The notes under the pieces: model-generated
The model's database searches: none
The model's input: only the letters and a program-made list of their open reading frames with translations
Told to the model about the DNA's origin: nothing
Part shown: one piece after another, positions 1-38,849 of the stretch
Layout of the letters: each line of letters begins with the position of its first letter
How positions within the stretch are numbered: position 1 is the first letter of the stretch
DNA from: a virus
Direction: 5' to 3' (one strand)
IMG/VR virus record: IMGVR_UViG_3300043436_001429
Location: 1 to 38,849 of that record
DNA: 38,849 nt
Program-made: the position numbers and the translations under genes

Positions 1-807
1 ATTGATTACACAAATTTGGTTGTAGGCGGTAATAGTGCCGCACAAGAAGCCGAATTAAGCCGTGTAATTTTGCGAGCGTCATCATTTCTTGACGAGTATT
101 TAAACCAAAATTTGTGCGCTACACGTAAAGTGGAAACACAGCGCACACGTTTTATGCCTAACGGATTTATCTCGTTACACCCAAATCAAAATCCAATTAT
201 TGCTTTAGAGGCATTTTCTTATGGAATGGCGCCAAATCAATTAGTGGCAATTCCTGACCCTTCTCTATGTTGGTTTGAATCTCAACAAATAATTATTCCA
301 GTTAGCCAAATGTCGCTTACTTGGTCATCTAGTGGCCCACTTTCGTTTGGCGGTGGCGGTTCTAACGCCAATCAAATTTATTGCCAATATACATACACTT
401 CGGGATACGTTAATAACCCGATTACTACGGCTGTTGCAGGCACTTCTTCTATGACAGTTGCCAACGCTACTGGCATTGTGGCAGGACAAGCGTTACGTAT
501 TTATGATGGCGCAAAATCAGAGTTAGTTTATGTGGCAAGCGGTTACACATACGGCGCCACAACTGTCACGCTAGCCTCTCCGTTGCTCTATGACCACGCG
601 GCAGGCACAACCTTTGGTAATCTGCCAAACGCAATTAAAGAGGCTGCAATCCTTGTTACAACGGCATTTATTAAAATGCGCGGCGATAGTTCTATGACAA
701 TGCAAGTAACAGTTAATCCAAGCGGAAACATTACAGGCGCAGAGCGTTACGGCTCAGAAATTGCTCTTGCATTGGAGATGGTCAGCCTGTATCGCCGAGT
801 TCGCTAA
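1..807 (+). CDS. Head-tail adaptor (connector) protein, 3' part
   Basis: This is the C-terminal part of a head-tail adaptor of the gp6/gp15-like kind, which docks on the portal ring after DNA packaging. The reading frame is open from base 1 (I-D-Y-T-N-L-V-V) without a credible start, so the gene is cut by the window edge. The missing N-terminus is almost certainly the partial gene that begins at 38779. The first 40 residues are helical (AELSRVILRASSFLDEYL), as in adaptor families. Residues from about 130 to 200 form a Thr/Ala/Gly-rich beta insert, and the last part is helical again (AIKEAAILVTTAFIKMRG). Its stop overlaps the next start (TAATG). The assignment rests on the helical start, on position between the capsid genes and the tail terminator, and on the joining with the other end. 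Exact family is uncertain. Confidence 0.75.
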   Translation: MDYTNLVVGGNSAAQEAELSRVILRASSFLDEYLNQNLCATRKVETQRTRFMPNGFISLHPNQNPIIALEAFSYGMAPNQLVAIPDPSLCWFESQQIIIPVSQMSLTWSSSGPLSFGGGGSNANQIYCQYTYTSGYVNNPITTAVAGTSSMTVANATGIVAGQALRIYDGAKSELVYVASGYTYGATTVTLASPLLYDHAAGTTFGNLPNAIKEAAILVTTAFIKMRGDSSMTMQVTVNPSGNITGAERYGSEIALALEMVSLYRRVR

Positions 808-1304
808 TGGCAACGCTGACAGGTCGCGCTGCCGTTCGTGCGCAATTATCTAAGTTTATTGGAAATCCACCGATTCCCACGTTAAATCAAGTATGGACTT
901 CGTTTCCCAAAAACATTAATTTTCAAGTTAATGCACAAGTAGGGCAAATGTCGCGGTCTGCTTGCGTTGTATTTATTCAGCAAGAAACAGAAACACGTCT
1001 TGCAATTGGCGGCGCACATAACGGCTGGAAACGGATTGATTACACAGTTATTCTGCAAATTTTTCAACACTCCCTACACCGCGATTCAACGGCGGCGATG
1101 GACGATTTTGATACACTTATTGACGCCATAAAAGAACGGCTACGTTCCGACCACAACTTTGGTGACACAAGTGGCACCTTAGTTTGGCAGGGTGCAGAGC
1201 CAATTATTGACGCCTTTTATGGTGAGCCAAGCACAAACAAAGAAGGCGCAACGGAAACGTTTGCCGAATTGCAGTTTGCTGTTACGCAGATGATACAAGC
1301 CTAA
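807..1304 (+). CDS. Tail terminator / tail completion protein
   Basis: Likely tail terminator (gpU-like), which caps the tail tube and joins it to the head. The 165-residue protein has the usual length and a mixed alpha/beta pattern: an N-terminal helix, beta strands around SACVVFIQQETETR and RIDYTVILQIFQ, a helix MDDFDTLIDAIKERLR, then a closing strand ETFAELQFAVTQMI. It starts on the ATG overlapping the adaptor stop and is followed, after a tiny protein, by the major tail protein, the usual place for a terminator. I see no catalytic motif. The call comes from gene order and secondary-structure pattern, not from a signature motif. Confidence 0.6.
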   Translation: MATLTGRAAVRAQLSKFIGNPPIPTLNQVWTSFPKNINFQVNAQVGQMSRSACVVFIQQETETRLAIGGAHNGWKRIDYTVILQIFQHSLHRDSTAAMDDFDTLIDAIKERLRSDHNFGDTSGTLVWQGAEPIIDAFYGEPSTNKEGATETFAELQFAVTQMIQA

Positions 1305-1313
1305 GGAGAAACA

Positions 1314-1508
1314 ATGAAATATAAATATAATGGAACAGATGAACGTGTGTTTCCTTCGCTTGGCGTTGTCGTAAAGCCCGGCGAGGAATTTGAAGCACCC
1401 GAAGATTTTGTTGCCGCCGATGTAGTGCCTAGTACTGCATTAACAACAAAAATAGCCAAGCCAACAACAACGTCTGTCGCCACAGACTTACCGCAGGAGA
1501 GTGAATAA
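1314..1508 (+). CDS. Small hypothetical protein before the major tail protein
   Basis: A 64-residue protein with a good ribosome binding site (AAGGAG, 1303-1308) and a stop directly before the major tail protein start. The N-terminal half (GTDERVFPSLGVVVKPGEEFEAP) looks like a short beta-sandwich segment of the kind found in small phage structural proteins. The C-terminal half is Thr/Ala-rich and probably disordered. It is probably co-translated with the tail genes and may be a minor virion component. I do not recognise a family. Confidence 0.6.
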   Translation: MKYKYNGTDERVFPSLGVVVKPGEEFEAPEDFVAADVVPSTALTTKIAKPTTTSVATDLPQESE

Positions 1509-2495
1509 ATGTCAGTACAAAATTCCGTTCGTTCCTATATAGGAATTGCAAAAGAAGCAACAAAAGGCACAGCAGTTGCGCCAACAGATTTTATCCCAGT
1601 AGCCAAAGATTCATTAAAGCCAGTAGATATTGTGGACCCACTTTACGATACAGGCTTGCGCGGCTCTAACGTTGTCAATTACAACTATATTCCGGGTCGC
1701 ACACGTTCTACATTTGATTTTGGCGGCGCTGTATTTGCTGACACTATCGGATATGGAATTGCTGGCGTTCTAGGTGCAGTTGCAACAACTGGCGCAAGCG
1801 CGCCATACACTCACACCATTAGTTTGTTAAATAGCCTAACTAGCGGTGCAGATACACAGCCAATCTCTTACACACTCACCGACTTTTATGCCGTTGATGT
1901 GCGTTCATACCCTGGTTGCCAGTTCTCGGACTTCTCATTGAAGTTTAACGCGGACGGAATGTTAGAGTATGACGCAAAGACAACTGGCTGGCAATCAAGC
2001 ACAGTTTCAGACCCAACTCCAACTTTCTCAACTGTATTGCCTACGCCAGTTTGGCGCGGCACAGTTTCAATTGGCGGTTCTGCTGTATCAACAGCAATGG
2101 AAGGCTCAATTGAGATGACACGCGGCGTTACACCTATTTATGGAATTTCTAATACACAGAATCCATATCAGGTATTTCTTGGCGCACTTGAAGTTACAGG
2201 CTCAATTAAGTTTGTAATGGAAAATGATGACCAACTTACTAATTTCCTTACCAACGTTCAGCCAGCAATTGTTCTTAACTGGGCATATGGCACAGGCGCA
2301 ACAGCGGTTCAAATCCAAGCCACAATCACTAAAGGCGCTTACACCGCCGCAATGATTGAGCGCGGAGATGATTTTGTTTCTGTTGCAATTGAACTAAACG
2401 CACAAGCAAATACCACAGATGACGGCGCAAGCGGTGGTTTCGCGCCAATTAAATGGGTTTTGCAGAACGCAAAGGCTTCTGGCACTTACGCGTAA
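1509..2495 (+). CDS. Major tail (tube) protein
   Basis: The 328-residue protein has the features of siphovirus tail tube proteins: an opening of the form SYIGIAKEATKGTAVAPTDF, then mostly beta strands with small residues (SDFSLKFNADGMLEYDAKTTG; VSIGGSAVSTAMEGSIEMTRG), and a C-terminal half describing repeated beta sheets (FVSVAIELNAQANT). It would polymerise into hexameric rings forming the tail tube. It lies between the terminator protein and the tail assembly chaperones, as in most siphoviruses. A strong intrinsic terminator follows directly, which would make this one of the most abundant late messages relative to the genes downstream. Confidence 0.85.
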   Translation: MSVQNSVRSYIGIAKEATKGTAVAPTDFIPVAKDSLKPVDIVDPLYDTGLRGSNVVNYNYIPGRTRSTFDFGGAVFADTIGYGIAGVLGAVATTGASAPYTHTISLLNSLTSGADTQPISYTLTDFYAVDVRSYPGCQFSDFSLKFNADGMLEYDAKTTGWQSSTVSDPTPTFSTVLPTPVWRGTVSIGGSAVSTAMEGSIEMTRGVTPIYGISNTQNPYQVFLGALEVTGSIKFVMENDDQLTNFLTNVQPAIVLNWAYGTGATAVQIQATITKGAYTAAMIERGDDFVSVAIELNAQANTTDDGASGGFAPIKWVLQNAKASGTYA

Positions 2496-2508
2496 TGTCA
2501 GAAAATAA

Positions 2509-2567
2509 GTGCTAAGGGGCGGTCGTAGAAAACGCCTTCCTTTCTCTCGCCCCTTAGCACCTTTTTT
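2509..2567 (+). terminator. Intrinsic terminator after major tail protein
   Basis: A perfect 13-bp stem, GTGCTAAGGGGCG (2509-2521) pairing with CGCCCCTTAGCAC (2548-2560), with a 26-base loop and followed by C and six T. It lies inside the late operon between the major tail gene and the tail chaperone genes. It probably lowers, rather than stops, transcription of the downstream tail genes. Confidence 0.9.
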
Positions 2568-7237: not shown

Positions 7238-7245
7238 GAGAATAA

Positions 7246-12771: not shown

Positions 12772-13051
12772 AAAACGACTAACGCCCGAAGAATTACACG
12801 CACGTTTAATTGTAACGATTGGCATATTGCTTGCGTGTGTGTTTGCTGGCTCTGTATTTGCGATGTTATATGCACTTGTTTTTGTAACGCAACCAATGGC
12901 GCAAGCGCCTAATGACGCGGCATTTATTGATTTAGTATCAACTCTTTGCGTGTTTTTAACTGGCACTCTTTCAGGAATATTAAGCGCAAATGGGCTAAAA
13001 TCTAAACCTAAACCGCCAATAGAAAAGGAAGTAACGGAAGATGGACATTAA
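12764..13051 (+). CDS. Holin-like membrane protein
   Basis: A 95-residue protein starting at ATG 12764 behind GGAGACAG; an in-frame upstream ATG at 12671 lies inside the lipoprotein gene and is less likely. Two membrane segments are visible (about 15-38 LIVTIGILLACVFAGSVFAM and about 55-75 FIDLVSTLCVFLTGTLSGIL), with a Lys-rich, charged C-terminus. Its place directly before the endolysin and its topology suggest a holin or holin partner. It overlaps the endolysin start by 11 bases. Confidence 0.65.
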   Translation: MARKRLTPEELHARLIVTIGILLACVFAGSVFAMLYALVFVTQPMAQAPNDAAFIDLVSTLCVFLTGTLSGILSANGLKSKPKPPIEKEVTEDGH

Positions 13052-13508
13052 TAAACTAATGGAACTTTGCGAGGCTTCTGTTGGCTATACAGAAGGCGCA
13101 AATAATGACACTACATTTGGCAAGTGGTACGGCTTAAACAACCAGCCGTGGTGCGCTATGAGTGCCAGCAAGATGTATTTTGATTCAGGCGCTATTGCGT
13201 CAGTTGCTAACACTAAAAAAGGATTTGCTTCCTGTGACGCGTGGCTTAAATATTTAACTAAGAATAATCAAATAGTGCCAATCGGACAGGCAAAACGTGG
13301 CGATATTGTGTTTTTCCAGTTTGATGAGGACGCACAGGCTGACCACGTGGGCATTGTGCGCTCGCATAATACAACTCTAAAGACTTTACAAGTATATGAA
13401 GGCAACACAAGTTCGGGTAAAAGCGGTAGCCAATCAAATGGCGACGGCTTTTATTTGAAAAAGCGCAACTATCAAACAATTATGGCAGTTGCTCGTCCAA
13501 AGGAGTAA
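13041..13508 (+). CDS. Endolysin, CHAP-type amidase/peptidase
   Basis: A 155-residue single-domain lysin that should cut peptidoglycan peptides or the sugar-peptide bond. The catalytic cysteine is C38 in the motif NQPWCAM, the histidine is H102 in QADHVGIV, and an E120/N122 pair in VYEGNTSS can complete the triad; this order is that of CHAP domains. No signal peptide, so export needs the holins encoded on both sides. No cell-wall binding domain is visible. Start ATG 13041 sits behind GGAAG within the end of the preceding gene. Confidence 0.87.
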   Translation: MDINKLMELCEASVGYTEGANNDTTFGKWYGLNNQPWCAMSASKMYFDSGAIASVANTKKGFASCDAWLKYLTKNNQIVPIGQAKRGDIVFFQFDEDAQADHVGIVRSHNTTLKTLQVYEGNTSSGKSGSQSNGDGFYLKKRNYQTIMAVARPKE

Positions 13509-13510
13509 AT

Positions 13511-14379: not shown

Positions 14380-14462
14380 TTTCTCGTACGCTGTCGAAAG
14401 ACGATTACTCCAAGAAATTGGAAATGGGATTAACGCCTAGGCACCCAAACTTAGCCGAGAAA
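14380..14462 (+). ncRNA. Candidate structured RNA
   Basis: An outer stem TTTCTCG (14380-14386) / CGAGAAA (14456-14462) encloses three smaller helices: GTC-GAAA-GAC (14393-14402), TCCAA-GAAA-TTGGA (14409-14422), and TGGG (14425-14428) with CCCA (14444-14447) around a GCCTAGGC palindrome. Two GAAA (GNRA-class) tetraloops inside a closed multi-branch layout are more than random DNA usually offers. I do not recognise a known riboswitch or ribozyme. Strand is assumed from the direction of all genes; function unknown. Confidence 0.4.
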
Positions 14463-18563: not shown

Positions 18564-18779
18564 ATGGCAAGAATATATATAAAGGCAATAGTCGCAGTTG
18601 ATATGCCTGAACCAAAAGCAACAATAGAAAAACAAAGCACAAAAGAACGTAACGAACAGTTACGCGAATACGCGGCAGAAAGAATTCTTGACGCTCTTTC
18701 AGGCGCGGAATTAAACCCAACAATCCAGCGCATTAATTTATCGCGCACAATCAAAGAAAAGGACAGTACAAATGAGTAA
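18564..18779 (+). CDS. Hypothetical protein upstream of RecT
   Basis: A 71-residue protein with start ATG 18564 behind AGGAAGG; the longer frame from 18456 has no ribosome site and overlaps the membrane protein. The N-terminus is strand-like (ARIYIKAIVAVDMPEP), followed by a charged helix (TKERNEQLREYAAERILDALSG). It overlaps the recT start by 8 bases, suggesting translational coupling with the recombinase. Function unknown. Confidence 0.6.
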   Translation: MARIYIKAIVAVDMPEPKATIEKQSTKERNEQLREYAAERILDALSGAELNPTIQRINLSRTIKEKDSTNE

Positions 18780-19590
18780 TAACAGTTCAGCACTTGCAGT
18801 TAATTCCGACCAAAACTTTTGGGACGAGCAACAACTAGCCGCACTAAAGCAGATTGGGCTGGCAAATGCGCCAAAGCCTGAACTAGCGGTGTTTCTTCAT
18901 TATTGTCAGCGCACAGGGCTAGACCCATTTGCACGGCAAATTTATATGATTGAACGCGGCGGACGTTTTACAATCCAAGCCAGTATTGATGGCTTACGTA
19001 TCGTTGCACAACGCTCTAACGAATACGCAGGTCAATCGGGTCCATTTTGGTGTGGCGCGGACGGCGTATGGACAGACGTTTGGCTACAAAGCACACCGCC
19101 AACAGCGGCAAAAGTTGGCGTTATGCGCAAAGGCTTCACAGAAGTTTTGTGGGCTGTTGCAAAGTTTGAGAGTTATAACGCTAACTCGCCTATTTGGAAA
19201 AAAATGCCTGATTTGATGATAGCGAAATGTGCCGAGGCACTAGCGTTACGCAAGGCATTTCCAAATGACTTATCAGGTATCTACACGGCAGAAGAAATGG
19301 AACAGGCGGCGCCAGTTAGTACGCCAGTTGCACAACCTGTTGTGGAGATTACAGAAATTACGCCACAAACTACAAAAGCAAACAATGAACTTACTGTTGA
19401 TTTGCTTAACATTTTAGATGAAGTGGAAAAAATAACGACAGTAGAAGCACTAAAAGCGTTATTTGACCGCCATAAAGTGTATTTAGATTATATGTTTATG
19501 TCGCCAGTTCTTGGACAAGAAATTAATCTACGTATGGCGATTATGGTTCGCAAAAGCGAATTGGAAGATGGCGTAAGTGTTGGACAATAA
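18772..19590 (+). CDS. RecT/Bet-family single-strand annealing protein
   Basis: A 272-residue recombinase of the RecT/lambda Beta family, which binds single-stranded DNA and anneals complementary strands during phage recombination. Family hallmarks are FLHYCQRTGLDPFARQIYMI near residue 41, FTIQASIDGLRIVAQRSNEY near 63-82, MRKGFTEVLWAVAKFESY, and PDLMIAKCAEALALRKAFPN near 145-165, followed by L-S-G-I-Y-T-A-E-E. The C-terminal 90 residues are variable with a helical end. The partner nuclease is encoded at 20799. The gene carries AAAGGACAG (18758-18766). Confidence 0.92.
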   Translation: MSNNSSALAVNSDQNFWDEQQLAALKQIGLANAPKPELAVFLHYCQRTGLDPFARQIYMIERGGRFTIQASIDGLRIVAQRSNEYAGQSGPFWCGADGVWTDVWLQSTPPTAAKVGVMRKGFTEVLWAVAKFESYNANSPIWKKMPDLMIAKCAEALALRKAFPNDLSGIYTAEEMEQAAPVSTPVAQPVVEITEITPQTTKANNELTVDLLNILDEVEKITTVEALKALFDRHKVYLDYMFMSPVLGQEINLRMAIMVRKSELEDGVSVGQ

Positions 19591-24067: not shown

Positions 24068-24418
24068 ATGACAGATTGGACGGCTCTACGTGAGGCGATT
24101 CTTGCACGTTGCCAAAACTACTGTGAGTTGTGCGGTAACGCACTTACAGACACGTTTGCACTACATCATCGCAAACTAAAATCACGCGGCGGTAAAGACA
24201 CGATAGATAATTTAGTTGCGTTACATCACGCTTGCCACAATATGGGTAATAACGCCGTGCATTTAAATGTGCAAAAAGCCACCGCAAGTGGTCATATGGT
24301 GCCAACATACGCCACGCCGTCTGCCTATCCATTACTTTTGCCTAACGGTTCTATTGTTACACTTAGCGAGGAAGGCACATACATTTACTTAGACAAGGCG
24401 GACAAAAATGGCTGGTGA
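24068..24418 (+). CDS. HNH nuclease
   Basis: A 116-residue HNH protein: Cys pair in NYCELCGNAL, then FALHHRKLKSRGGKDTIDNL and LVALHHACHNMGN, which is the classic H-H-R...D-x-x-x-N-L-V...C-H order. It resembles the small HNH proteins found in many phages and prophages near replication or terminase genes; whether it cuts host DNA, aids packaging, or resolves DNA is not clear. The C-terminus (PLLLPNGSIVTLSEEGTYIY) is beta-rich. AAAGGACAG leader (24056-24064). Overlaps ssb by 11 bases. Confidence 0.85.
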   Translation: MTDWTALREAILARCQNYCELCGNALTDTFALHHRKLKSRGGKDTIDNLVALHHACHNMGNNAVHLNVQKATASGHMVPTYATPSAYPLLLPNGSIVTLSEEGTYIYLDKADKNGW

Positions 24419-24788
24419 AGGCGTTATAACAGTTACAGGCAATATTGGAAATGATGTAGGAATTGCATTTACATCAGGCAATAAAGCGTATTTAAAATTT
24501 TCAATCGCAAATACGCCACGCATTAAAAAAGATGAAGTTTGGCAAGACGGCGTAACAACTTGGTTTAACTGCACAATTTGGGGGCGTGACGCTGAAACAG
24601 CGATAGAACATTTACGTAAAGGAACGCGCGTAATCGTTACAGGTCGCTTTGCAGGTAACACTTACACAGATAAAGAAGGCAAAGAACGCACATCATTGGA
24701 CATTAGTGTTGATAATTACGGCGTTGTTCCGCGTAATACGGCTAGTGCGCCAGTTTCAACCGATACGCAAAACGACCCTTGGGCTTAG
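24408..24788 (+). CDS. ssb: Single-stranded DNA-binding protein
   Basis: A 126-residue SSB with one OB fold: VITVTGNIGNDVGIAFTSGN, KAYLKFSIANTPR, TTWFNCTIWGRDAETAIEHL, RKGTRVIVTGRFAGNTY and SLDISVDNYGVVPR follow the bacterial SSB strands in order. The tail ends N-D-P-W-A, an acidic end with Trp in place of the usual D-D-I-P-F, which likely docks SSB partners. It would coat single-stranded phage DNA during replication and RecT recombination. Confidence 0.93.
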   Translation: MAGEGVITVTGNIGNDVGIAFTSGNKAYLKFSIANTPRIKKDEVWQDGVTTWFNCTIWGRDAETAIEHLRKGTRVIVTGRFAGNTYTDKEGKERTSLDISVDNYGVVPRNTASAPVSTDTQNDPWA

Positions 24789-25055: not shown

Positions 25056-25598
25056 ATGGAAAAGTTAGTAGTAGAAACCATTTCAATTGATGATTTGGCG
25101 TTAGACCCGAATAACGCACGTAAGCACAGCGAAAAAAATATTAACGCAATTTGCGAATCATTAACGCAATTTGGGCAACGTAAGCCAATTGTTATAAATG
25201 CAGATGATGTTGTTATTGCAGGCAACGGCACAGTAGAAGCGGCGCGCAAACTTGGTATTAAAACGTTAGAAATTGTGCGCGTGCCTGCCAATTGGTCAGA
25301 GGAAAAAATAAAGGCGTACGCGCTCGCGGACAATCGCACGGCTGAATTAGCAAGTTGGGACGCGGAAATATTACTATCGCAACTTAATGAGTTAAATATT
25401 GCCGATTGGGACATTAACGCACTTGGATTTAAAGAGTTTGAACTAAATCCGCCTAAAGATTCTGACGCTGATACTGATATGAAAAGCATAGGCGAACGTT
25501 ATGAAGTTGTTATTGAGTGCGAAGATGAAAACGAACAAACGGCACTACTTATCCGCTTATCGCAAGACGGCTTAAAAGTCAGAGCAATCATCATCTAA
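25056..25598 (+). CDS. ParB-like nuclease-domain protein
   Basis: A 180-residue protein. Residues 1-115 are a ParB/sulfiredoxin-like domain: LALDPNNARKHSEKNINAIC, SLTQFGQRKPIVIN, then VVIAGNGTVEAARKLG where G-N-G-T replaces the more common G-H-x-R, and IKAYALADNRTAELASWD. The C-terminal 40 residues (GERYEVVIECEDENEQTALL) are the small domain that often follows ParB in phage DNA-modification proteins. It stands alone without a plasmid-type ParA, and no methyltransferase domain is fused. It lies 13 bases upstream of the ABC-GNAT gene, which suggests shared work on phage DNA. It may bind nucleotides or DNA. Confidence 0.85.
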   Translation: MEKLVVETISIDDLALDPNNARKHSEKNINAICESLTQFGQRKPIVINADDVVIAGNGTVEAARKLGIKTLEIVRVPANWSEEKIKAYALADNRTAELASWDAEILLSQLNELNIADWDINALGFKEFELNPPKDSDADTDMKSIGERYEVVIECEDENEQTALLIRLSQDGLKVRAIII

Positions 25599-25611: not shown

Positions 25612-26745
25612 ATGGGCAAAGTAATTCGCCTTGAAAGCACAATTACGCGCACGGCACGTGTAATGCAACTTGAAGGCTTGTTTGATATGGATTCGGAAAA
25701 GAATTCTGTTACAGAAATTGAAATGAATATTCCTGATTTAAGCACACGCGATTGGAACATTGGACTTATTGTTGGGCCATCAGGCGCTGGCAAAAGCACA
25801 ATTGCGCGTGAAATGTTTCCCGAAAAGTTACGCGACACGGAAAATATGATTTGGTCAGACGATAAGGCAATTATTGACGATTTTCCTATGGATATGCCAA
25901 TGCGTGAAGTAACGCAATTACTGTCATCTGTTGGCTTTAGTTCGCCACGTGCGTGGTTGCGCCCATATAAGGCACTCAGTAACGGCGAACAGTTTCGTGT
26001 AACGATTGCGCGTGTGCTTGCCGAAAATAATGATTTATCTGTTGTAGATGAATTTACTTCCGTTATTGACCGCACAGTTGCGCAGATTGGCTCACACGCC
26101 ATAGCCAATACTGTGCGTAAGCGCGGACAAAAGTTTGTTGCTGTGGGTTGCCATTACGACATACAGGAATGGTTACAGCCCGATTGGATTTACGAGCCAC
26201 ATACTGGCAAATTCACTTGGGGGTCGGTTCAACCCCGACCACAAGTGGAACTTGAAATCATATGGGCAAAGTATGAATCGTGGCACACGTTCGCACGTCA
26301 TCACTATTTAGACGCCAATTTAAACAAGGCGGCATATGTATATGTGGGGTTAATTAAGGGACAGCCTGCCTGTTTAGCGGCTGTACTGCCAATGCCAAAT
26401 GCACACGTTAGAAATGCGCGGCGGTTTAGCCGTAACGTAGTGTTACCTGACTTTCAAGGCATTGGGTTAGGCAAATACTTTCTAGATGTTATTGGCGCTG
26501 GCTTAGTCGCTCAGGGACTAGCGGTTTATGCTACTGCCAGCCACCCTGCACAAGTACATAATTTTAATAAATCGCCAAATTGGGAAATGATTCGTATGCC
26601 GTCAAGAGTTGCCAAACAAGGCAAAACAAGTTCATTATCTACACGTATGGGCGTAAGTAGAGCGCGTGTTACAAGTTCGTTCCGATTTAGAGGCGAACCT
26701 GATTATGAACTCGCCAAGATATTAGCGCCACTTCCCAAAAAATAA
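25612..26745 (+). CDS. ABC-type ATPase fused to a GNAT domain (Mom-like candidate)
   Basis: A 377-residue fusion. The first 205 residues form an ABC ATPase: Walker A GPSGAGKST (55-63), signature LSNGEQ (122-127), Walker B LSVVDEF with E147, and switch H181 in GCHYDIQEWL. It lacks membrane parts, so it is a soluble ATPase. Residues 210-377 form an acetyltransferase-type (GNAT) fold: ESWHTFARHHYLD, GLIKGQPACLAAVLPM, then RNVVLPDFQGIGLGKYFLDV with the acyl-CoA loop FQGIGLG (281-287), and ATASHPAQVHNFNKSPNWEM. Mu Mom, which modifies adenine in phage DNA, also has a GNAT fold, so together with the ParB neighbour a DNA-modifying role is the best idea. Not proven. Confidence 0.8.
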   Translation: MGKVIRLESTITRTARVMQLEGLFDMDSEKNSVTEIEMNIPDLSTRDWNIGLIVGPSGAGKSTIAREMFPEKLRDTENMIWSDDKAIIDDFPMDMPMREVTQLLSSVGFSSPRAWLRPYKALSNGEQFRVTIARVLAENNDLSVVDEFTSVIDRTVAQIGSHAIANTVRKRGQKFVAVGCHYDIQEWLQPDWIYEPHTGKFTWGSVQPRPQVELEIIWAKYESWHTFARHHYLDANLNKAAYVYVGLIKGQPACLAAVLPMPNAHVRNARRFSRNVVLPDFQGIGLGKYFLDVIGAGLVAQGLAVYATASHPAQVHNFNKSPNWEMIRMPSRVAKQGKTSSLSTRMGVSRARVTSSFRFRGEPDYELAKILAPLPKK

Positions 26746-27697: not shown

Positions 27698-28179
27698 TGG
27701 CGGCTAAGAAAAGCAAACTTAATCCTGAAACATTGGCAAAAGAAGCCAAAGTCCTTGAAATGAGGCGCGGCGGCTTTACGTTTGACTTGATTGCTACACG
27801 ACTTGGCTATGCGAGCGCCAGCGGCGCGTACAAGGCTTATCACACGGCTTGCAATCGCATTGTCTATGCAGAAGTGGCAGAAACGCGTAACGTTGAAATG
27901 GATAGGCTTGATATTGCGCAAGCGGCAATATGGGGCGACATTATTAACGGCGCAACGCCTGAAATACGTGCGCGCGCAGTTTTAACGTACGTAAGAATTT
28001 CGGAACGGCGAGCCAAACTTCTTGGCTTAGATATGCCAACAAAGGCGCAGATAGAGGTAACTCATTATGACAGTTCAACAATTGACGCCGAAGTCGCAAG
28101 ACTTGTCGCTCTCCTTGATAGCGAGCCGCCACGTCAGATGGAGTCATCAACTGGCGAGAATGGAACAATTACCAACTAA
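27697..28179 (+). CDS. Terminase small subunit
   Basis: A 160-residue protein that should recognise the packaging site. The N-terminal part is a helix-turn-helix: LAKEAKVLEMRRGGFTFDLI then ATRLGYASASGAYKAYHTAC, followed by helices (NRIVYAEVAETRNVEMDRLD) for oligomer contact and a region with ISERRAKLLGLDMPTKAQIE, common in small terminases. The gene directly precedes and overlaps the large subunit by 113 bases, in line with coupled translation. Confidence 0.82.
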   Translation: MAAKKSKLNPETLAKEAKVLEMRRGGFTFDLIATRLGYASASGAYKAYHTACNRIVYAEVAETRNVEMDRLDIAQAAIWGDIINGATPEIRARAVLTYVRISERRAKLLGLDMPTKAQIEVTHYDSSTIDAEVARLVALLDSEPPRQMESSTGENGTITN

Positions 28180-29413
28180 CGATAAAAGTTGGACTACGTG
28201 GGTTTATTTGGCAGGACGCGGCGCAGGCAAGACACGTACGGCGGCAGAATGGCTTGCGTGGCAGGCTAGTAGCAATCCGCGCACTAGATGGGCTATTGCG
28301 GCGCCAACTTACGGCGATGTGCGTGATACGTGCGCAGAAGGCGAATCGGGAATTGTGCGTGTGTTACGTGAGTACGGCACATTAAAGGATTACAACCGAA
28401 GTATCGGCGAAATCTTTCTTACTAACGGCTCACGTATTAAGTTATTTAGTGGCGAAGAACCCGACCGCTTTCGTGGGCCACAATTTCACGGCGGTTGGTT
28501 TGATGAGTTAGCGGCGTTCAAACACCCCGAAGCGTGGGACCAATATCAATTTGGCTTACGTTTAGGCGATTTTCCGCAAACAATTGTTACAACTACGCCA
28601 CGTCCAACTAAACTTATTAAAGATTTAATTACACGTGAAGGCGTGAAAGTAGTACGAGGCTCTACTTTTGATAACGCCGCCAATCTAGCCGCGAGCGCAC
28701 TTGCTGAACTTAAATTGCGTTACGAGAATACACGGCTTGGACGGCAAGAGTTATACGGCGAAATACTTGATGATGTAGAAGGCGCTTTATGGACGCGCAA
28801 AATGATTGATGAGGCGCGTGTAACGGAAGCACCGCCATTAGTTCGTATTGTTGTGGCGATTGACCCTGCCGTTACAAGTAACACAACGTCAGATGAAACA
28901 GGCATTGTGGCGGCTGGCATTGACCATAAGGGAAATTACTATGTGTTAAATGATAAAACGTTACGCGCAACGCCTGATACGTGGGCGCGCCAAGCGGTAA
29001 ATCTGTATCACGAACTAAACGCGGACAAGATTATTGCCGAAACAAATAACGGCGGCGATATGGTTGTAATGGTTTTAAAACAAATTGATGTATCTGTGCC
29101 AGTTAAAAAAGTAACCGCCACTAGAGGCAAGCAATTACGCGCCGAGCCAATTAGTGCGCTGTATGAACAAGGCAGAGTTCATCACGTTGGCTATTTTGAG
29201 GACTTAGAAAATCAAATGTGCGAATGGACGCCATTAAGTAACGAATCGCCTGATAGATTAGACGCGCTGGTGTGGGCACTTACTGAACTAAATAACGGCG
29301 GTTCAAGTATGCTTGCACTTGCGGCGTTGGCTAAATTCTGCCTCAAATGCAGTATGCCTGCCAATAAGAACGCAAGTATGTGCTCTCATTGTGGCGGTAA
29401 GTTAGGGGAATAA
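28067..29413 (+). CDS. Terminase large subunit with C-terminal zinc ribbon
   Basis: A 448-residue packaging motor. ATPase: GRGAGKT at 50-56, Walker B with D146-E147 (GGWFDELAAF), coupling motif TTTPRPT. Nuclease: D266 in VVAIDPAV, E325 in IIAETNNGGD, and D399 in DRLDAL. The ATG at 28067 follows GAGGTAA, so I keep it although the overlap with the small subunit is 113 bases; an inner ATG at 28160 is also possible. The last 24 residues add FCLKCSMPANKNASMCSHCG, a C425/C428 plus C439/C442 zinc ribbon that is not part of the standard fold. Confidence 0.93.
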   Translation: MTVQQLTPKSQDLSLSLIASRHVRWSHQLARMEQLPTNDKSWTTWVYLAGRGAGKTRTAAEWLAWQASSNPRTRWAIAAPTYGDVRDTCAEGESGIVRVLREYGTLKDYNRSIGEIFLTNGSRIKLFSGEEPDRFRGPQFHGGWFDELAAFKHPEAWDQYQFGLRLGDFPQTIVTTTPRPTKLIKDLITREGVKVVRGSTFDNAANLAASALAELKLRYENTRLGRQELYGEILDDVEGALWTRKMIDEARVTEAPPLVRIVVAIDPAVTSNTTSDETGIVAAGIDHKGNYYVLNDKTLRATPDTWARQAVNLYHELNADKIIAETNNGGDMVVMVLKQIDVSVPVKKVTATRGKQLRAEPISALYEQGRVHHVGYFEDLENQMCEWTPLSNESPDRLDALVWALTELNNGGSSMLALAALAKFCLKCSMPANKNASMCSHCGGKLGE

Positions 29414-30245: not shown

Positions 30246-30254
30246 GAGAAAAAA

Positions 30255-31796: not shown

Positions 31797-31812
31797 TTAA
31801 AGGAGAGAGAAT

Positions 31813-33666
31813 ATGGGTCTAATAGACCGTATTGCCGAAAAAGTAGCCGCCGAAATTACTAAGGGTCCGCGTTTGCCAGCAGGCGCTGTAACAATGACCG
31901 AAATGGATATGCGCAACGCCGCAAATCAAACTACTTACGGACAATCAGTTGCACTTCCACGTGACCCAATGGTGTCAGGCGTTCCATTTGCACCGGGTAT
32001 GCCAATTATTCCGGGCGCAATTAATCCACCGCGTTCAGATAGCGGACGTCCTGACCCACGCCGATATGAATTTCAAGTTGCACAAAATATTAATATTACG
32101 GCAACTAAACTTGTTCCGTTTGCAACACTAAGAGCCGCGGCAGACCAAATAGATATTTTGCGCCGTTGTATTGAAGTATTAAAGGCAAAGATTTCGGGAC
32201 TAGAGTGGGACATTGTTTTGGCAGAAGATTCAGCCGAAAAAATTATTACAGAAATTGGCGGTAATCACGTTCGCGCTATGTCTGTTGCGCGTGAGCGATA
32301 CACGGAAGAGATTAGCCGCCTTAGAGAATTTTGGGAACAGCCTGACCCAACAAACGGACTTTTATTTACTGATTGGCTTAATATTGCACTTGAAGAAATT
32401 TTAGTGTTAGACGCGTGGGCAGTTTGGCCGCAACCATCAGTAGGCGGCGATTTGCTCGGCTTACAGATACTAGATGGCTCAACTATTAAGCCGCTTATTG
32501 ATGACCGCGGTATGCGCCCACAGGCGCCTTATCCTGCCTTTCAGCAGATTCTTTTTGGATTCCCACGTAGCGAATTTGCCGCGTCAGATGGCAAAGAAAA
32601 TGCAGATGGCGAATTTACGTCAGATGAAATGGCTTATTTGATTCGCAATCGCAGAACAATGACAGTTTATGGCTATTCGCCAACAGAACGCGCACTTGCG
32701 CTCGCGGATATTTATTTACGCCGCCAACAATGGCTACGTGCCGAATATACAGATGGCGTTACACCTGAATTACTTATGAAAACGGACGCCAACTTTGGCA
32801 ACAATCCTGATTTGTTACGCGCCTACGAAAACATTTTTAATGATGATTTGGCAGGACAAACGGAACAACGCAAGCGCGTACGCCTTTTGCCAACTGGTAT
32901 GGAGCCAGTTCAGTTTGAAGGATACGGCGAACGCTTTAAAGATACGTTAGATGAGTATTTGGTTAATAGCATTTGCGGTCACTACGGCGTTATGCCGTCC
33001 GAAATCGGCTTTAATCCTAAAGGCGGCTTAGGCGGCGGCGGTTTCCAATTGGGTCAGGCTGAATCGTCAGAAGTTATCGGCGCAATTCCATTGGCTAACT
33101 GGGTCGGACGTATGTTGAGCCACTTGTCCTATACATACTTGGGTATGCCACGCGAACTTGAATTTAAGTTTATGGAATCAGGACGCCAAGATTTGGAATC
33201 AATTGCGCGCACACGCGACATAGAAACTAAATCAGGCAGTTTAACTCTTAACGAATCACGTAGTCGCGGCGGTATGCCGTTAATTGAATCACCTATAGCC
33301 GATATGCCAATGATTGTTACAGGCGCAGGCGGTTATTTTGTAACTGAAAGCGGCATTATTCCTTTTGATAGCGCACTTGAAGGCGTATCTGCGCCTGCCG
33401 AGGACGCGTTAGAAATAGAATCAGGCGGCGATGTAGGCGGCGGCTCAGAGGCGCCTGTGCCTAATGTAGAAGATAAGCCCGAAGAAGATGAAGGCATTAA
33501 AGCGCAAGAAGAATTAAAAATGTTTATGCGTTGGCTAAAAAAATCACCTACACGCCCATTTAATTTCCGTGAAGTGCCTGTTGTATATGCCGAAGTGTTA
33601 AATAAGTTTATTGGCATTGGCGATTATGACAGCGCAAGATGGTATGCCGAACGATATTTGGCGTAA
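31813..33666 (+). CDS. Portal protein
   Basis: A 617-residue portal, which forms the dodecameric ring at one capsid vertex. Recognisable parts: VPFATLRAAADQIDILRRCI, LKAKISGLEWDIVLAED, FTDWLNIALEEILVLDAWAV, GYSPTERALALADIYLRRQQ, and a long segment LAGQTEQRKRVRLLPTGMEP followed by Gly-rich KGGLGGGGFQLGQAES. The C-terminus after 520 is acidic and low complexity (ALEIESGGDVGGGSEAP), with a final folded end (MRWLKKSPTRPFNFREVPVV). Position after terminase supports the call. Good GGAGAGAG site. Confidence 0.9.
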   Translation: MGLIDRIAEKVAAEITKGPRLPAGAVTMTEMDMRNAANQTTYGQSVALPRDPMVSGVPFAPGMPIIPGAINPPRSDSGRPDPRRYEFQVAQNINITATKLVPFATLRAAADQIDILRRCIEVLKAKISGLEWDIVLAEDSAEKIITEIGGNHVRAMSVARERYTEEISRLREFWEQPDPTNGLLFTDWLNIALEEILVLDAWAVWPQPSVGGDLLGLQILDGSTIKPLIDDRGMRPQAPYPAFQQILFGFPRSEFAASDGKENADGEFTSDEMAYLIRNRRTMTVYGYSPTERALALADIYLRRQQWLRAEYTDGVTPELLMKTDANFGNNPDLLRAYENIFNDDLAGQTEQRKRVRLLPTGMEPVQFEGYGERFKDTLDEYLVNSICGHYGVMPSEIGFNPKGGLGGGGFQLGQAESSEVIGAIPLANWVGRMLSHLSYTYLGMPRELEFKFMESGRQDLESIARTRDIETKSGSLTLNESRSRGGMPLIESPIADMPMIVTGAGGYFVTESGIIPFDSALEGVSAPAEDALEIESGGDVGGGSEAPVPNVEDKPEEDEGIKAQEELKMFMRWLKKSPTRPFNFREVPVVYAEVLNKFIGIGDYDSARWYAERYLA

Positions 33667-33676
33667 GGAGAGCAAA

Positions 33677-34746: not shown

Positions 34747-34748
34747 CA

Positions 34749-35030
34749 ATGTCTTTTAACCACGTAAATGCCGCAACTTTTACAACACCACAGCCAATCT
34801 TTACGGCGCCAACTGGTATACAGCGTCAGACTCCGATAACAGTTTATAACGGACACTCTGCCAGTATTTTTATTGGTGACGAAACTATTGCAACATCAGG
34901 CGCAACTATTGGCAGAACATTGACCGCCTCTAATTCGCAGACGTTTTATGTAAATGGCGGAGATGTTGTTTATGCTATTTCAGCCGCCGCGTCAGCCGCT
35001 GGCGCAATAGTAATTACTTATTCAGGCTAG
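34749..35030 (+). CDS. Small beta-rich head protein
   Basis: A 93-residue protein with predicted beta sandwich: QTPITVYNGHSASIFIGDET, ATSGATIGRTLTASNSQTFY, VNGGDVVYAIS and a final strand. This pattern (hydroxyl-rich strands with I-x-I-G-x-x-x-V/I-x-x-x-x-G) occurs in small virion proteins coded near capsid genes. Perhaps a decoration protein. The call is by context. Confidence 0.5.
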   Translation: MSFNHVNAATFTTPQPIFTAPTGIQRQTPITVYNGHSASIFIGDETIATSGATIGRTLTASNSQTFYVNGGDVVYAISAAASAAGAIVITYSG

Positions 35031-35037
35031 AGTTTAA

Positions 35038-36564
35038 ATGTCTGAAAGTTTTAATCCACCAGCAGGCGTTGTCAGCAACGCAAAGCGCGGCTTAGAATTA
35101 CGCCGTGAATTCAATCGTGGCGGCACGGCAGTTGGCGTGGCGCGCGCAAGAAGTTTGTCAAATGGTCAAGGACTTCCATTAGAAACTATCCGCCGTATGG
35201 TATCTTATTTTGCACGGCACGAAGTTGATAAGAAAGGCAAGGATTGGGGAAACGCCTCTAATCCTTCCGCTGGATATATTGCTTGGCTACTGTGGGGCGG
35301 CGACGCAGGAAAAACGTGGGCGGATAGTATTTCCGAGAGAGAAAAGAAAAAGGATAAATCTATGGCTACTGATATGACCAGCACTTACGCCGCAATTATT
35401 AAACAAGAAAAACAAGATGATGGCACTTTGCTTGTTTATGGAAAAGCAACAGATGATTCATTGGATATTGACGAACAAATTTGCGACGCCACTTGGCTTG
35501 AAAAGGCTATGCCCGAATGGTTTAAAACTGGCGGTAATATTCGTGAGCAACACAGCAGTATTGCGGCAGGCGTTGCCAAAGAATTAGATTCAAAGCCTGA
35601 TGGTTATTATATTTCTGCATTAGTTGTGGACGCGCAATCTGTTAAGAAAGTTGAAACAGGCGTGTTAAAAGGATTCTCAATTGGCATTAGAGCGCCACGA
35701 ATTGTGCGAGATAACAAAGCCGCTAACGGCAGAATTATTGACGGACAAATTGTTGAAGTTTCTTTAGTTGATAGACCAGCCAACCCAAATGCAAAACTTA
35801 TGTTGGCAAAGTTTGACACAGCAGGCGATTTGGAAAAAGTGGAAGAATTTATCGGCAAAGAAGAAGAAAAAACTACAAGCGAAACCGTGATAGGAGAAAA
35901 AATGGAACACGAAGAAGATAAAGCGGTTTCCGAAAAGCCGTCTAAAGAAGATATGTTAAAAATGTATGAAGAAGCCAAGTCCGCATATATGGACGCCAAA
36001 ATGGCACTTGATGAGTGCAAGTCAATGTGCAAAGAGGCTGGTCTTGAACTTGAAGAAGATGAAGAAAAAGAATTAGAGCCAGTTGGCGAATCAGCGGAAG
36101 AAGAAACTGCCGAAGGTTCTAAGCCAGAAGCGGCGGAAGAAGAAGTAGAAGAAGCCGAAGGAAAGAAAACAGCAGAAGGCGAAGAAACCGCCGAAGTAGT
36201 TGAACCCGAAAATTCCGTTGAAGAAACGGAACAACCTGCTCTAGATGATGACGTTATTGACGCCATTGTTGATAAAGCCGTAAAGAGTGCAACAGCAACT
36301 GTGCGTGACGAGATTAAATCCTATAAAGAGGAAATTAATAAGTTGCAATCAGAGTTGGCAACGGCTAAGAACAAAGCAGTAGGTAGCGGACCGAAGCGCG
36401 CCGTAGTAAGTAAGCCAGCAATTCTTGAATTCAATGAGTTCAGCAGAATGGCAGAGCAATATCGTGCTAAGGCGGCAGATACCACCGACAATCAATTGGC
36501 GTTGGGATATCGGGAATTGGCGGCAGAATTTGAAGCCAAAGCCGTTGCATTAATTAACAACTAA
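35038..36564 (+). CDS. Capsid maturation protease with fused scaffold
   Basis: A 508-residue multi-part protein. Residues 1-100 (NPPAGVVSNAKRGLELRREF; GVARARSLSNGQGLPLETIR) are a separate conserved domain known from other phage head proteins. Residues 109-280 carry the prohead protease fold: His in REQHSSIAAG, Ser in LKGFSIGIR, and IVEVSLVDRPANPNAKLMLA. Residues 285-508 are acidic, coiled coil and low complexity (EEEETAE-type), the scaffold. In-frame starts with good sites at 35362 and 35902 could make protease alone and scaffold alone. The protease should trim capsid N-termini and the scaffold. Confidence 0.85.
   Translation: MSESFNPPAGVVSNAKRGLELRREFNRGGTAVGVARARSLSNGQGLPLETIRRMVSYFARHEVDKKGKDWGNASNPSAGYIAWLLWGGDAGKTWADSISEREKKKDKSMATDMTSTYAAIIKQEKQDDGTLLVYGKATDDSLDIDEQICDATWLEKAMPEWFKTGGNIREQHSSIAAGVAKELDSKPDGYYISALVVDAQSVKKVETGVLKGFSIGIRAPRIVRDNKAANGRIIDGQIVEVSLVDRPANPNAKLMLAKFDTAGDLEKVEEFIGKEEEKTTSETVIGEKMEHEEDKAVSEKPSKEDMLKMYEEAKSAYMDAKMALDECKSMCKEAGLELEEDEEKELEPVGESAEEETAEGSKPEAAEEEVEEAEGKKTAEGEETAEVVEPENSVEETEQPALDDDVIDAIVDKAVKSATATVRDEIKSYKEEINKLQSELATAKNKAVGSGPKRAVVSKPAILEFNEFSRMAEQYRAKAADTTDNQLALGYRELAAEFEAKAVALINN
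35902..36564 (+). CDS. Nested scaffold protein (internal start)
   Basis: In the same frame as the protease, ATG 35902 has AGGAG (35892-35896) five bases upstream, a site stronger than many true starts here. The product would be 220 residues: M-E-H-E-E-D-K-A-V-S..., acidic, helical (MLKMYEEAKSAYMDAKMALD), with a folded end (EFNEFSRMAEQYRAKAADTT) that may bind the capsid protein. This is the arrangement of lambda C and Nu3, where scaffold is translated from within the protease gene. Confidence 0.7.
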   Translation: MEHEEDKAVSEKPSKEDMLKMYEEAKSAYMDAKMALDECKSMCKEAGLELEEDEEKELEPVGESAEEETAEGSKPEAAEEEVEEAEGKKTAEGEETAEVVEPENSVEETEQPALDDDVIDAIVDKAVKSATATVRDEIKSYKEEINKLQSELATAKNKAVGSGPKRAVVSKPAILEFNEFSRMAEQYRAKAADTTDNQLALGYRELAAEFEAKAVALINN

Positions 36565-36593
36565 CCAAAGAAACTCTTTACGAAAGGAAACAA

Positions 36594-38300
36594 ATGGCAA
36601 CATCAGCCTTGAAAGCCACAGAATTGTTTTCTGACGCGACTTCTGCAAAAGACGCCGCACTACGTCAGGAAGAATATTCATCTGCTTTTAATAAGTCTGT
36701 AAATGCCTCTGTTACTGACCCATCTGCCATTATGGCAATCAAGTCAGGCACAGCGACATTTGCAACAGTAGCGCCAACACCAGTTGCGCAACTTGAATCA
36801 CTAATGTCCAACAAGTCATTAACACCTGACGCAGTAGGCGCACTTAATAACGCACTTGCTTCACAGCGTATGGCTATGCAGGATATTCAGAAAGAAATCA
36901 CACTTACATCTCCACTTAGCACATCATTTGCAGCCTTTGACCTAGAAGCGCCTGCAAAGTTGCTTACACCACGTCCAACACCACTACGTAACCGAATTCC
37001 ACGCAAGAAAGGCGTTGGCACAAGCCACCGCGTCAAGCGTATTCTTGGTTACACAGGTACAGGAACTGGCGGAGTTGGTAACACTTGGCCGGGAATCACA
37101 CAAAGCACAACTACTGCATTTGGTTCAATTAACTTTGAACGCGGACCACAAATCTCATATGCCGCAGATGACTTAGTGCTTCCTTACAACTCTTACTCAC
37201 TATCTGACGCGGTTTCTTTTGACGCCAACTTCTCAGGTATGGGATATCAGGACTTGCGCCAACTTTCATCTACTTCAACTCTATATGCAACAATGCTTAT
37301 GGAAGAACGTATGATGTTGATGGCTCGCGGAACTGCAAGCGGTTATTCAGGCGCACTAGCGGCACCTGCTTCTGTAACAATTACTTCACCAGTAGCAAGT
37401 GGCTCACAGACAGCAATTGCTGCCAACACTTACTATGTTTATGTAACAGCAAACGCTGGTATCGCAGGCTCAGGCTTTGGCGAATCAATCGTTTCATCTG
37501 TTGCTAGCGGTGCGGTTGCTTCTGGCGACGTTCTTGCAATTTCTTGGGGCGCAGTTACTGGCAACATTGGTTACAACATTTATGTTGGCACATCAACAGG
37601 CACAGCAAACTGCACATACGTAGGAACAGCACAGGGAACTTCTGCTGTTATTCAAGGCGCAGGAACTGTTGGTCTAACTGGCAATAACTTCGCTCTAACT
37701 ACAACAGGCGCCGCCGCGTCACGCGCAAACGCAGATACATCTGCATATGCAACTGGCTATGACGGAATTCTGCCTACTGTTCTTGGCGCTAACTCAGGCT
37801 ATAACAATACAATCAACAGTACTTTCAGCACATCAAACCCTGGTACTGAATATCAGACCGTTTTCTACAATCTCTACAATGATGTTAAGGCTGACCCTGA
37901 TGAGATTCTTATCAATGGTTCAGACCGCAAGCAGTTGTCAGACGCAATTAAAAACGGCTCAACAGCAAACTACCGTCTAAACCTCACACAAACAGAGGCT
38001 GGCGATTACATTGGCGGCGCAACAATCGGTGCGCTTTACAATGAAATCACAGGCAAGATGGTTCCACTTACTGTGCATCCTTGGCTGCCACAGGGCGTTT
38101 CTCCAGTTCTTTCATACACTTTGCCAATTCCTGACACCGAGGTTTCAGATGTTTGGTCAAACTTTATGGTTCAGGACTATATGGGAATCCAATGGCCTGT
38201 AACTCAATTCCAGTATGAATTTTCTACTTACTTCCGTGGAACTTTCTTCTGCACCGCACCTGCTTGGAACGGCGCAGTATCAGGAATCGTGTCTGCATAA
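36594..38300 (+). CDS. Major capsid protein (HK97 fold) with inserted Ig/FN3-like domain
   Basis: A 568-residue capsid protein. The N-terminal 110 residues are a helical delta-domain type region, probably removed by the protease after roughly residue 110. The core begins with LLTPRPTPLRNRIPRKKGVG and continues TYYVYVTAN only after residue 280; before it lie the E-loop and spine-helix part (YATMLMEERMMLMARGTA). Residues about 258-370 form an Ig/FN3-like insert (VTITSPVASGSQTAIAANTY; SWGAVTGNIGYNIYVGTSTG). The last part, FYNLYNDVKADPDEILINGS and GIQWPVTQFQYEFSTYFRGT, completes the fold. Much higher use of C-ending codons than neighbours fits very high expression. GAAAGGAAA leader. Confidence 0.92.
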   Translation: MATSALKATELFSDATSAKDAALRQEEYSSAFNKSVNASVTDPSAIMAIKSGTATFATVAPTPVAQLESLMSNKSLTPDAVGALNNALASQRMAMQDIQKEITLTSPLSTSFAAFDLEAPAKLLTPRPTPLRNRIPRKKGVGTSHRVKRILGYTGTGTGGVGNTWPGITQSTTTAFGSINFERGPQISYAADDLVLPYNSYSLSDAVSFDANFSGMGYQDLRQLSSTSTLYATMLMEERMMLMARGTASGYSGALAAPASVTITSPVASGSQTAIAANTYYVYVTANAGIAGSGFGESIVSSVASGAVASGDVLAISWGAVTGNIGYNIYVGTSTGTANCTYVGTAQGTSAVIQGAGTVGLTGNNFALTTTGAAASRANADTSAYATGYDGILPTVLGANSGYNNTINSTFSTSNPGTEYQTVFYNLYNDVKADPDEILINGSDRKQLSDAIKNGSTANYRLNLTQTEAGDYIGGATIGALYNEITGKMVPLTVHPWLPQGVSPVLSYTLPIPDTEVSDVWSNFMVQDYMGIQWPVTQFQYEFSTYFRGTFFCTAPAWNGAVSGIVSA

Positions 38301-38428
38301 TGTGTCTAGTATGTGGTTGCAATCAGCCAGCAAATAGTCACGGCGGCGGTCAGACAATTTTGCCTGACGGCACTAACGCAATTATGACTACTGCTGTAAT
38401 GGTTACACCAACCGAAACACCAAAGTAA
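38300..38428 (+). CDS. Very small Cys-containing protein after MCP
   Basis: A 42-residue protein that starts on the capsid stop (TAATG). It begins M-C-L-V-C-G-C-N, a C-x2-C-x-C group that could bind metal, followed by a Thr-rich, probably flexible tail. It would be made at the same rate as the capsid message because it lies before the terminator. Function unknown; may be a virion component. Confidence 0.5.
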   Translation: MCLVCGCNQPANSHGGGQTILPDGTNAIMTTAVMVTPTETPK

Positions 38429-38440
38429 TCCGTCAAGAAG

Positions 38441-38476
38441 GGTGGCGCGTCATATAGTGGGCGCGCCACCTTTTTT
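38441..38476 (+). terminator. Intrinsic terminator after the capsid gene
   Basis: GGTGGCGCG (38441-38449) pairs perfectly with CGCGCCACC (38462-38470), 12-base loop, then six T. It stands inside the structural operon between capsid and head-completion genes. Confidence 0.9.
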
Positions 38477-38494
38477 AACTTAAAAGGGGCAAAA

Positions 38495-38779
38495 GTGGGA
38501 AGATTATTAGCGTCAGATGGCGGCGTTAGAGGCGTGGATATTACAACCGAACGTGGCACACGTTCATATAATCCTGATAAAAAAGGCGTTATAACAGTTG
38601 ATAATCCAACACACGCCAAACGATTGAAGGCAGAGGGTTTTTTTGAAGCCTCTTTAATGGGTCCAACTACGGACGAAAATCTTGGTTACACTTGTTTAGA
38701 GTGTGGCTTTGGCAGTTGGTTTGCTTTGTGTAGCCGTTGCGGTCATAACAACAGCACAACGCCTAGAGATGGAGAATAA
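38495..38779 (+). CDS. Head-associated protein with C-terminal zinc ribbon
   Basis: A 94-residue protein from GTG 38495 behind AAAAGGGGC. The N-terminal part (GVRGVDITTERGTRSYNPDK; ITVDNPTHAKRLKAEGFFEA) matches a short domain found after capsid genes in phages of Actinobacteria, where R-G-x-R-x-Y and V-D-N-P-x-H-A are recurrent. The C-terminus has YTCLECGFGSWFALCSRCGH, a zinc ribbon with C-x2-C and C-x2-C. It overlaps the adaptor start by one base. Confidence 0.65.
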   Translation: MGRLLASDGGVRGVDITTERGTRSYNPDKKGVITVDNPTHAKRLKAEGFFEASLMGPTTDENLGYTCLECGFGSWFALCSRCGHNNSTTPRDGE

Positions 38780-38849
38780 TGGCAATTGGTTTAAATACGG
38801 ACACGTTTTTTGAAAGCCCATATTTAACTGCGGCTGAATATCAAAGCGC
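38779..38849 (+). CDS. Head-tail adaptor protein, 5' part
   Basis: Start of the adaptor: M-A-I-G-L-N-T-D-T-F-F-E-S-P-Y-L-T-A-A-E-Y-Q-S, cut by the window end. The phrase P-Y-L-T-x-x-E-Y is a frequent adaptor opening. Direct joining to base 1 does not keep the frame (one base, or one plus a multiple of three, is missing), so the circle is not fully closed here. Confidence 0.75.
   Translation, partial: MAIGLNTDTFFESPYLTAAEYQS

Follow-up and report, generated by a model that had tools for sequence, protein, structure and literature searches.

Loss of Several Palindromic Tetramers from a Freshwater Actinophage-Like Genome and Differing Missing Sets Among Its Relatives

The subject of this report is the loss of short palindromic words from a viral DNA of 38,849 bases, IMG/VR record IMGVR_UViG_3300043436_001429, which was analyzed at its full length and is called the window below. 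This sequence is an almost complete genome of an actinophage-like siphovirus from fresh water. Both of its ends lie inside one gene, which is intact in the relative G004 and reads AEYLNAPTSIDYTN there and AEYQSA ... IDYTN in the window. Because only about 10 bases are absent at this junction, the description of the sequence as a whole genome in the first-pass annotation is right in practice, and joining the ends creates no GATC, AGCT or CATG site. The terminase is 43-49% identical to those of roseobacter, Microcystis and Arthrobacter phages, and a megablast search of named phages with the first 20 kb gave no match. Relatives in IMG/VR, found with genes that included the terminase and portal, number in the hundreds; judged by their sample numbers, many are presumably derived from lakes.

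Words missing from the window

The first-pass annotation had proposed that GATC, AGCT and CATG are absent from the genome, when base composition would predict about 100-150 of each. A direct count returned 0, 0 and 0, and the expectation computed from base composition, about 145 each, agrees with that estimate. Under a maximal-order Markov model the expectations lie in the range 73-91 (73, 79 and 91, in some order). Across the whole window, TCGA occurs once against 40 expected and GGCC 9 times against 199, in keeping with the earlier description of both as present but rare. CCGG, whose depletion had gone unreported, occurs 10 times against 80. The sites that are left are as follows.

14394..14397: sole TCGA site, with no called gene there (40-62 sites expected)
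334, 6975, 12267, 25775, 28476, 30257, 32426, 37087, 38194: remaining GGCC sites, scattered
1378, 1692, 7149, 9524, 10109, 12255, 24877, 31993, 32011, 37089: remaining CCGG sites

No flanking-context rule was seen for the residual GGCC and CCGG sites. The annotation had also called the other palindromes common. This holds for ACGT, AATT, GCGC, CTAG and TTAA, which like ATAT and TGCA are about normal, but GTAC is mildly low, with 62 of 119 expected sites (ratio 0.52); TATA is also mildly low, with a ratio of 0.58.

The loss exceeds the effects of composition and codon use. In 200 synonymous-codon shuffles of the coding sequence, with the proteins and codon usage held fixed, the expectations were 122 ± 9 for AGCT, 81 ± 6 for CATG, 80 ± 7 for GATC and 62 ± 7 for TCGA, and none of these words was observed in any of the three reading phases. 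For GGCC and CCGG the shuffles gave 104 and 55, against 9 and 10 observed, and z scores for the six depleted tetramers ran from -7 to -13.5. When a tetramer is considered eliminated if its count is less than one tenth of expectation, 5 of the 16 palindromic tetramers are eliminated and 0 of the 240 non-palindromic ones (Fisher p = 5e-7). The loss is confined to palindromes and to motifs like those of restriction-modification (R-M) systems, and these words are counter-selected.

About 12 longer sites are also almost absent. Compared with the codon shuffles, the window contains 0 GTYRAC against 30, 2 CASTG against 59, 4 GCATC against 73, 1 CTGAAG against 23, 9 GTNNAC against 98, 2 GTCTC against 25, 4 GGATG against 38, 4 CCCGC against 37, 4 CCWGG against 23 and 15 GCWGC against 83. 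CTGCAG, ATGCAT, GTGCAC, ACTAGT, CTTAAG and AGCGCT are each at 0 against 4-13. By the same measure GANTC (84 vs. 95), GAATTC (9 vs. 8.5), RGCGCY (65 vs. 44), GTNAC and TCNGA are not depleted. Known Type II enzymes recognize most of the depleted words. CTGAAG, the site of the Type IIG prototype Eco57I, is scarce in the window and in some of its relatives, and G005 has the normal number (23/23). One further word, GACTG/CAGTC, is almost absent from the window (1 vs. 43 in the shuffles). Loss of a word from one strand only, the orientation bias associated with Type III enzymes, was found neither in the window nor in eight complete or long relatives.

Relatives and homologous sites

When the tetramers were counted against a Markov model and in related phages, the depletion stood, and the sets of missing words differed. 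Dozens of relatives have differing, overlapping sets, and the relatives scored by the same measure have 2 to 7 palindromes eliminated. GTAC, with 62 of 119 expected sites in the window, is at 1/42 in L005 and 0/26 in L014; TGCA, normal in the window, is at about 1/35 in L010; and GCATC is at 113/104 in G002 and at 4/45 in the window. In L017-L020, ACGT, CGCG, GTAC, GATC, AGCT and TCGA are all at about 0. A second, more distant family, which surrounds the terminase of a phage binned in a metagenome-assembled genome (MAG), includes contigs with no ATAT, TTAA or TATA. L435, a 21 kb contig of this family, has TTAA at 0/69, and its ACGT, AGCT, CCGG, GATC and TCGA are also at 0. A library or assembly artefact, for instance enzyme digestion prior to sequencing, is scarcely credible as the source of these absences, and nothing was seen in its favor. 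The missing words vary from contig to contig, and one metagenome, 3300017785, gives GATC at 0/22 in L019 but at 73/76 in L048.

A terminase tree of 57 rows requires a minimum of 8 state changes for GTAC, 5 for TGCA, 4 for CATG and 3 each for GATC, ACGT and GCATC. The annotation had suggested long exposure to restriction. This description suits AGCT, GATC, GGCC and CCGG, whose avoidance is long-standing because they are absent from most of the phage family. It does not suit GTAC, TGCA and CATG, whose states switch between phages that are 84-91% identical in DNA. Within the GATC avoiders, a clade of L045 (1-17487), L048 and L049 has near or full expected GATC (73/74 in L045), and no methyltransferase was seen in the parts of these sequences that are available.

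Other patterns were observed among the relatives. In G003 (L213/L214), GATC sites are clustered at record positions 30000-36000, with the rest of the genome almost GATC-free, a pattern that looks like recombination between phages of different missing sets. In L371/L372 (G001:C175:1-32229) and in L374, CCAG occurs once on the strand where CTGG occurs 135 times, with 62 and 126 expected; CCTC/GAGG is at 0/119 on both strands, and CCATC is at 0/39. One-strand losses are also present in L077, L078 and L079, with GCCC at 0/17 against 20-23 GGGC, and CCCA at 3/41 against 56 TGGG.

Alignment of homologous DNA shows that the sites differ individually. Between phages 87-89% identical, 0 of 15-71 sites were retained, while other tetramers were retained at 63-68%. 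For example, L005 is 89% identical to the window and keeps 68% of its tetramers but 0 of its 21 GTAC sites. At 17 of the 21, L005 is a single substitution away, with many alleles, mostly silent. Window GTAC sites are likewise retained at 0/18 in L015 and 0/15 in L014, and window TGCA sites at 0/27 in L012 (63% of tetramers kept overall), 1/31 in L011 and 1/36 in L010; the remaining palindromes in these alignments are retained at about 40-75%. At the same 89% identity, the GATC sites of L045 are retained at 0/71 in L052 and at 34/53 in L049. Under site independence, which is only approximate, the chance of such results is about 5e-11 for GTAC between the window and L005 and about 5e-36 for GATC between L045 and L052. 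This evidence for site removal covers GTAC, TGCA, GATC and CATG in the relatives; the zeros of the window itself have no site-bearing close homologue.

The same alignments bear on a mutational origin, in which methylated cytosines within sites are deaminated or replication or repair mutates palindromes. Frequent replacement alleles do include transitions, such as GATC to GATT or GACC and CATG to TATG. However, transversions are also found and all positions change, with GTAC standing opposite GAAC, GTTC and TTAC, and TGCA opposite TGCT, TTCA and AGCA. Palindromes of every composition and longer motifs are affected, close relatives differ in the words lost, and total absence requires the loss of every site, including those in constrained codons. 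A mutational bias is therefore very unlikely to explain the pattern.

The direction of change is suggested by the alleles. At the sites where the window has GTAC, the avoiders share alleles at 16/17, 14/14 and 13/17, against 68-75% in controls. Because the avoiders mostly share alleles at these sites, the window has probably reacquired GTAC, in agreement with its count of about half the normal number and with its position inside the GTAC avoiders on the tree. For TGCA, the alleles at lost sites differ between L010 and L011/L012 (14/22 shared by L010 and L011, against 85%), which suggests parallel losses. Distant outgroups offered too few informative sites to polarize the GTAC and TGCA changes.

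Genes of the window and its candidate host

The genes of the window that bear on its affinities and on DNA modification are listed here.

13041..13508, + strand: endolysin, closest to the lysin of Actinomyces phage xhp1
17134..18147, + strand: DUF932 protein, closest in Arthrobacter, Gordonia and Microbacterium phages
18772..19590, + strand: RecT annealing protein
24408..24788, + strand: single-strand DNA-binding protein
25056..25598, + strand: ParB-N-like protein (phrog_620, 1.8e-40; phrog_498, DNA methyltransferase, 3.5e-36; PADLOC MTase_II, 4.8e-20)
25612..26745, + strand: ABC-ATPase with an acetyltransferase-like C-terminal part (phrog_11143), adjoining the ParB gene
28067..29413, + strand: terminase large subunit, the query for relatives and for the tree
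31813..33666, + strand: portal protein
36594..38300, + strand: probable major capsid protein, so called from its position in the gene order (phrog_13692, which has no annotated function)

No methyltransferase was recognized in the window when 20 predicted proteins were compared with Pfam and ten with PHROGs and a motif scan was made of frames of at least 130 residues. Distant relatives have the ParB-N domain and a DNA methyltransferase in a single fused protein. The ABC-ATPase gives an acetyltransferase-like match over residues 276-335 (phrog_7693, 1.2e-6), and this ABC-GNAT protein is closest to proteins of Arthrobacter, Gordonia and Microbacterium phages. The position of its gene, next to ParB, is syntenic with that of the Mom-like gp47 of Appa, and the two proteins have no sequence match. 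The ParB and ABC-GNAT pair may be a DNA-modification module, a lead drawn from domain matches and gene order. The pair lies upstream of the terminase in the clade of the window. Other relatives have ParB and methyltransferase-like genes in the same place, including a cytosine methyltransferase (L063 and L072; also G009), or, in L075 and others of its clade, ParB fused to an N6/N4 methyltransferase. Methyltransferases are present in G009, L063, L072 and L075-L081. The clade of distant relatives with the ParB-N6/N4 methyltransferase retains GATC and CATG. In L072 an asparagine-synthase-like gene (L072:6068-6943) lies between the ParB and cytosine methyltransferase genes.

These genes raise the question of an agent other than restriction by the host: a nuclease or modification enzyme of the phage, binding sites for host proteins, or R-M systems carried by co-infecting phages or mobile elements. 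The window encodes two HNH proteins in addition to the ParB-like and ABC-GNAT proteins, and other mobile elements could impose restriction instead of the host proper. Nevertheless, the missing words are mostly known Type II specificities, which argues against selection unrelated to restriction, and ParB and ABC-GNAT do not set the pattern, since they persist in relatives whose missing sets are quite unlike one another. Such agents are unlikely to be responsible.

The affinity of the endolysin points to an actinobacterial host. The only related contig above 55% identity in the genome collection, L152, comes from the Actinomycetota MAG WB6_1B_195. Its genome group contains 43 genomes of 0.8-2.1 Mb, with sampled guanine plus cytosine (G+C) fractions mostly 0.40-0.48 and some high-G+C loci, and rhodopsin is present in G001 of this group. 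The host is probably a small-genome freshwater actinobacterium resembling the Nanopelagicales. R-M systems are present in a minority of the 43 genomes, and each is different. Cytosine methyltransferases (PF00145) occur in 10, N6/N4 methyltransferases (PF01555) in 2 and a D12 methyltransferase (PF02086) in 1, and 3 genomes have strong PF02384 matches. Genes neighboring the methyltransferases encode endonucleases of the HpaII (E 8e-68), HaeII (5e-60), EcoRII-C (9e-19) and NgoFVII types and weak matches to the SacI and BglII types. Two of these, found beside cytosine methyltransferases, match sites depleted in the window: the HpaII type (CCGG) and the EcoRII-C type (CCWGG-like).

A further possibility is that the phage simply takes its word usage from the host, and phages often do resemble their hosts in composition. 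Extending the count to the supposed host, as the first-pass annotation had envisaged, revealed no such avoidance. In DNA of the candidate family (80-100 kb from three genomes and 20 kb from two more), the observed-to-expected ratios of AGCT, GATC, CATG and TCGA are 0.64-1.05, most of them close to 0.9-1.0. For the sampled genomes this rules out plain imitation of host composition, and the bias belongs to the phage itself. Members of one phage family also differ among themselves, and host copying is highly improbable as an explanation. Host DNA without bias is to be expected if R-M systems are accessory and persist only briefly (Rusinov 2015, PMC4687349).

Microcystis, whose genomes are rich in R-M systems, was considered as a host and rejected. 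In the Microcystis phage Mae-JY09 only 48% of the terminase is shared, the G+C content is 72% and no palindrome is eliminated; the lysin, DUF932 and ParB/ABC-GNAT genes of the window are also actinophage-like.

Interpretation and comparison with known phages

The first-pass annotation had left the choice between restriction exposure and counter-selection of some other kind. The evidence for counter-selection is good, and its likeliest agent by a wide margin is restriction. Very probably, Type II sites were eliminated under varied, patchy R-M systems of the host, with sites drifting back after the pressure ended; it is in this sense that we infer restriction as the selecting agent, together with the host and the identity of the enzymes. 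Site-bearing phages would be cut by Type II enzymes of the host population, and single, mostly synonymous point mutations would remove the sites one at a time. The endpoint would be a genome with 0-1 sites left for GATC, AGCT, CATG and TCGA and few for GGCC, CCGG and about 12 longer words. Because no methyltransferase was recognized in the window, the absence of sites would be its main visible defense. The sets of relatives would differ because the distribution of R-M systems over host strains is patchy and changes with time: selection on a phage line would act on the sites of systems that it is encountering, and sites of systems no longer encountered would drift back.

Several observations weigh against this explanation. 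The link to the candidate host is a single phage contig, with a terminase 59% identical, binned in a MAG, and binning is weak evidence of a host. The HaeII- and NgoFVII-type enzymes do not account for the window, since RGCGCY and GCSGC are not avoided. No DpnII-type (GATC) enzyme was found in the 43 genomes, where AluI, NlaIII and TaqI types were not searched for. GACTG is not known to be the site of any enzyme. Finally, draft genomes of acI bacteria from Lake Biwa contained neither methylated motifs nor methyltransferases (PMC6329791). Given these drafts and the few methyltransferases per genome in the candidate family, the whole set is more than a single strain can supply, and the repertoire would need to be spread over a population.

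If restriction in patchy host populations is the cause, the missing words might be a combinatorial and rapidly rewritten record of it, with about 10-25 words erased at once, later regained, and readable as host specificities; the chances for and against this extension seem evenly balanced. Reading such a record may allow the hosts and restriction repertoires of uncultured phages to be inferred. A further suggestion is that lake bacteria with small genomes, each with few R-M systems, may together have a large restriction repertoire. Since states switch between phages about 89% identical, the pace at which sites are lost and regained can be measured in natural sequences.

The comparison with known systems covered a handful of phages and is not a survey. 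As with T7 and staphylococcal phage K (GATC), the window is a double-stranded DNA phage that has eliminated orthodox Type II sites and has no recognized methyltransferase. A single palindrome is eliminated in each of T7, the first 45 kb of phage K and Helicobacter phage KHP30, against 5 in the window and up to 7 in its relatives. In addition, unlike T7 and phage K, the family of the window has a missing set that switches between phages about 89% identical. A bias of sites to one strand makes T7 refractory to EcoP15I. This is resembled not by the window but by L371/L372 and L374, where a 4-base word occurs in one orientation, as CTGG (CCAG 1/62).

Microbacterium phage Appa and Gordonia phage Jace have an early region in which a ParB-like gene is followed by a Mom-like or ABC-GNAT gene, together with DUF932, RecT and RusA or HNH genes. 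The G+C content of both is high, and one palindrome is eliminated in Appa (AGCT, 1/117) and none in Jace. The Planktophila (acI) phages E7 and F5, compared by description only, likewise infect freshwater actinobacteria and have genomes of about 39 kb with a G+C content of 44-45%, and the portion of their paper that was available contains no report of site avoidance (PMC10202952). They encode WhiB and a sigma factor, neither of which was noticed among the partly searched proteins of the window.

Earlier reports of such avoidance in freshwater or metagenomic phages were not found in the literature searched. In a broader survey, elimination was found in 3.9% of phage-site pairs, and Type IIG sites were unavoided (Rusinov et al., 2018, PMC6286503). 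In contrast, the window is also depleted in asymmetric sites, including CTGAAG, the site of a Type IIG prototype. Reports of site avoidance usually concern one or two sites in a phage; in this group several tetramer palindromes are missing together and in varied combinations. The window is set apart from the known cases because five tetramers are eliminated together and CTGAAG is depleted. Overall, site avoidance is already known, and its breadth and turnover in these phages are new.

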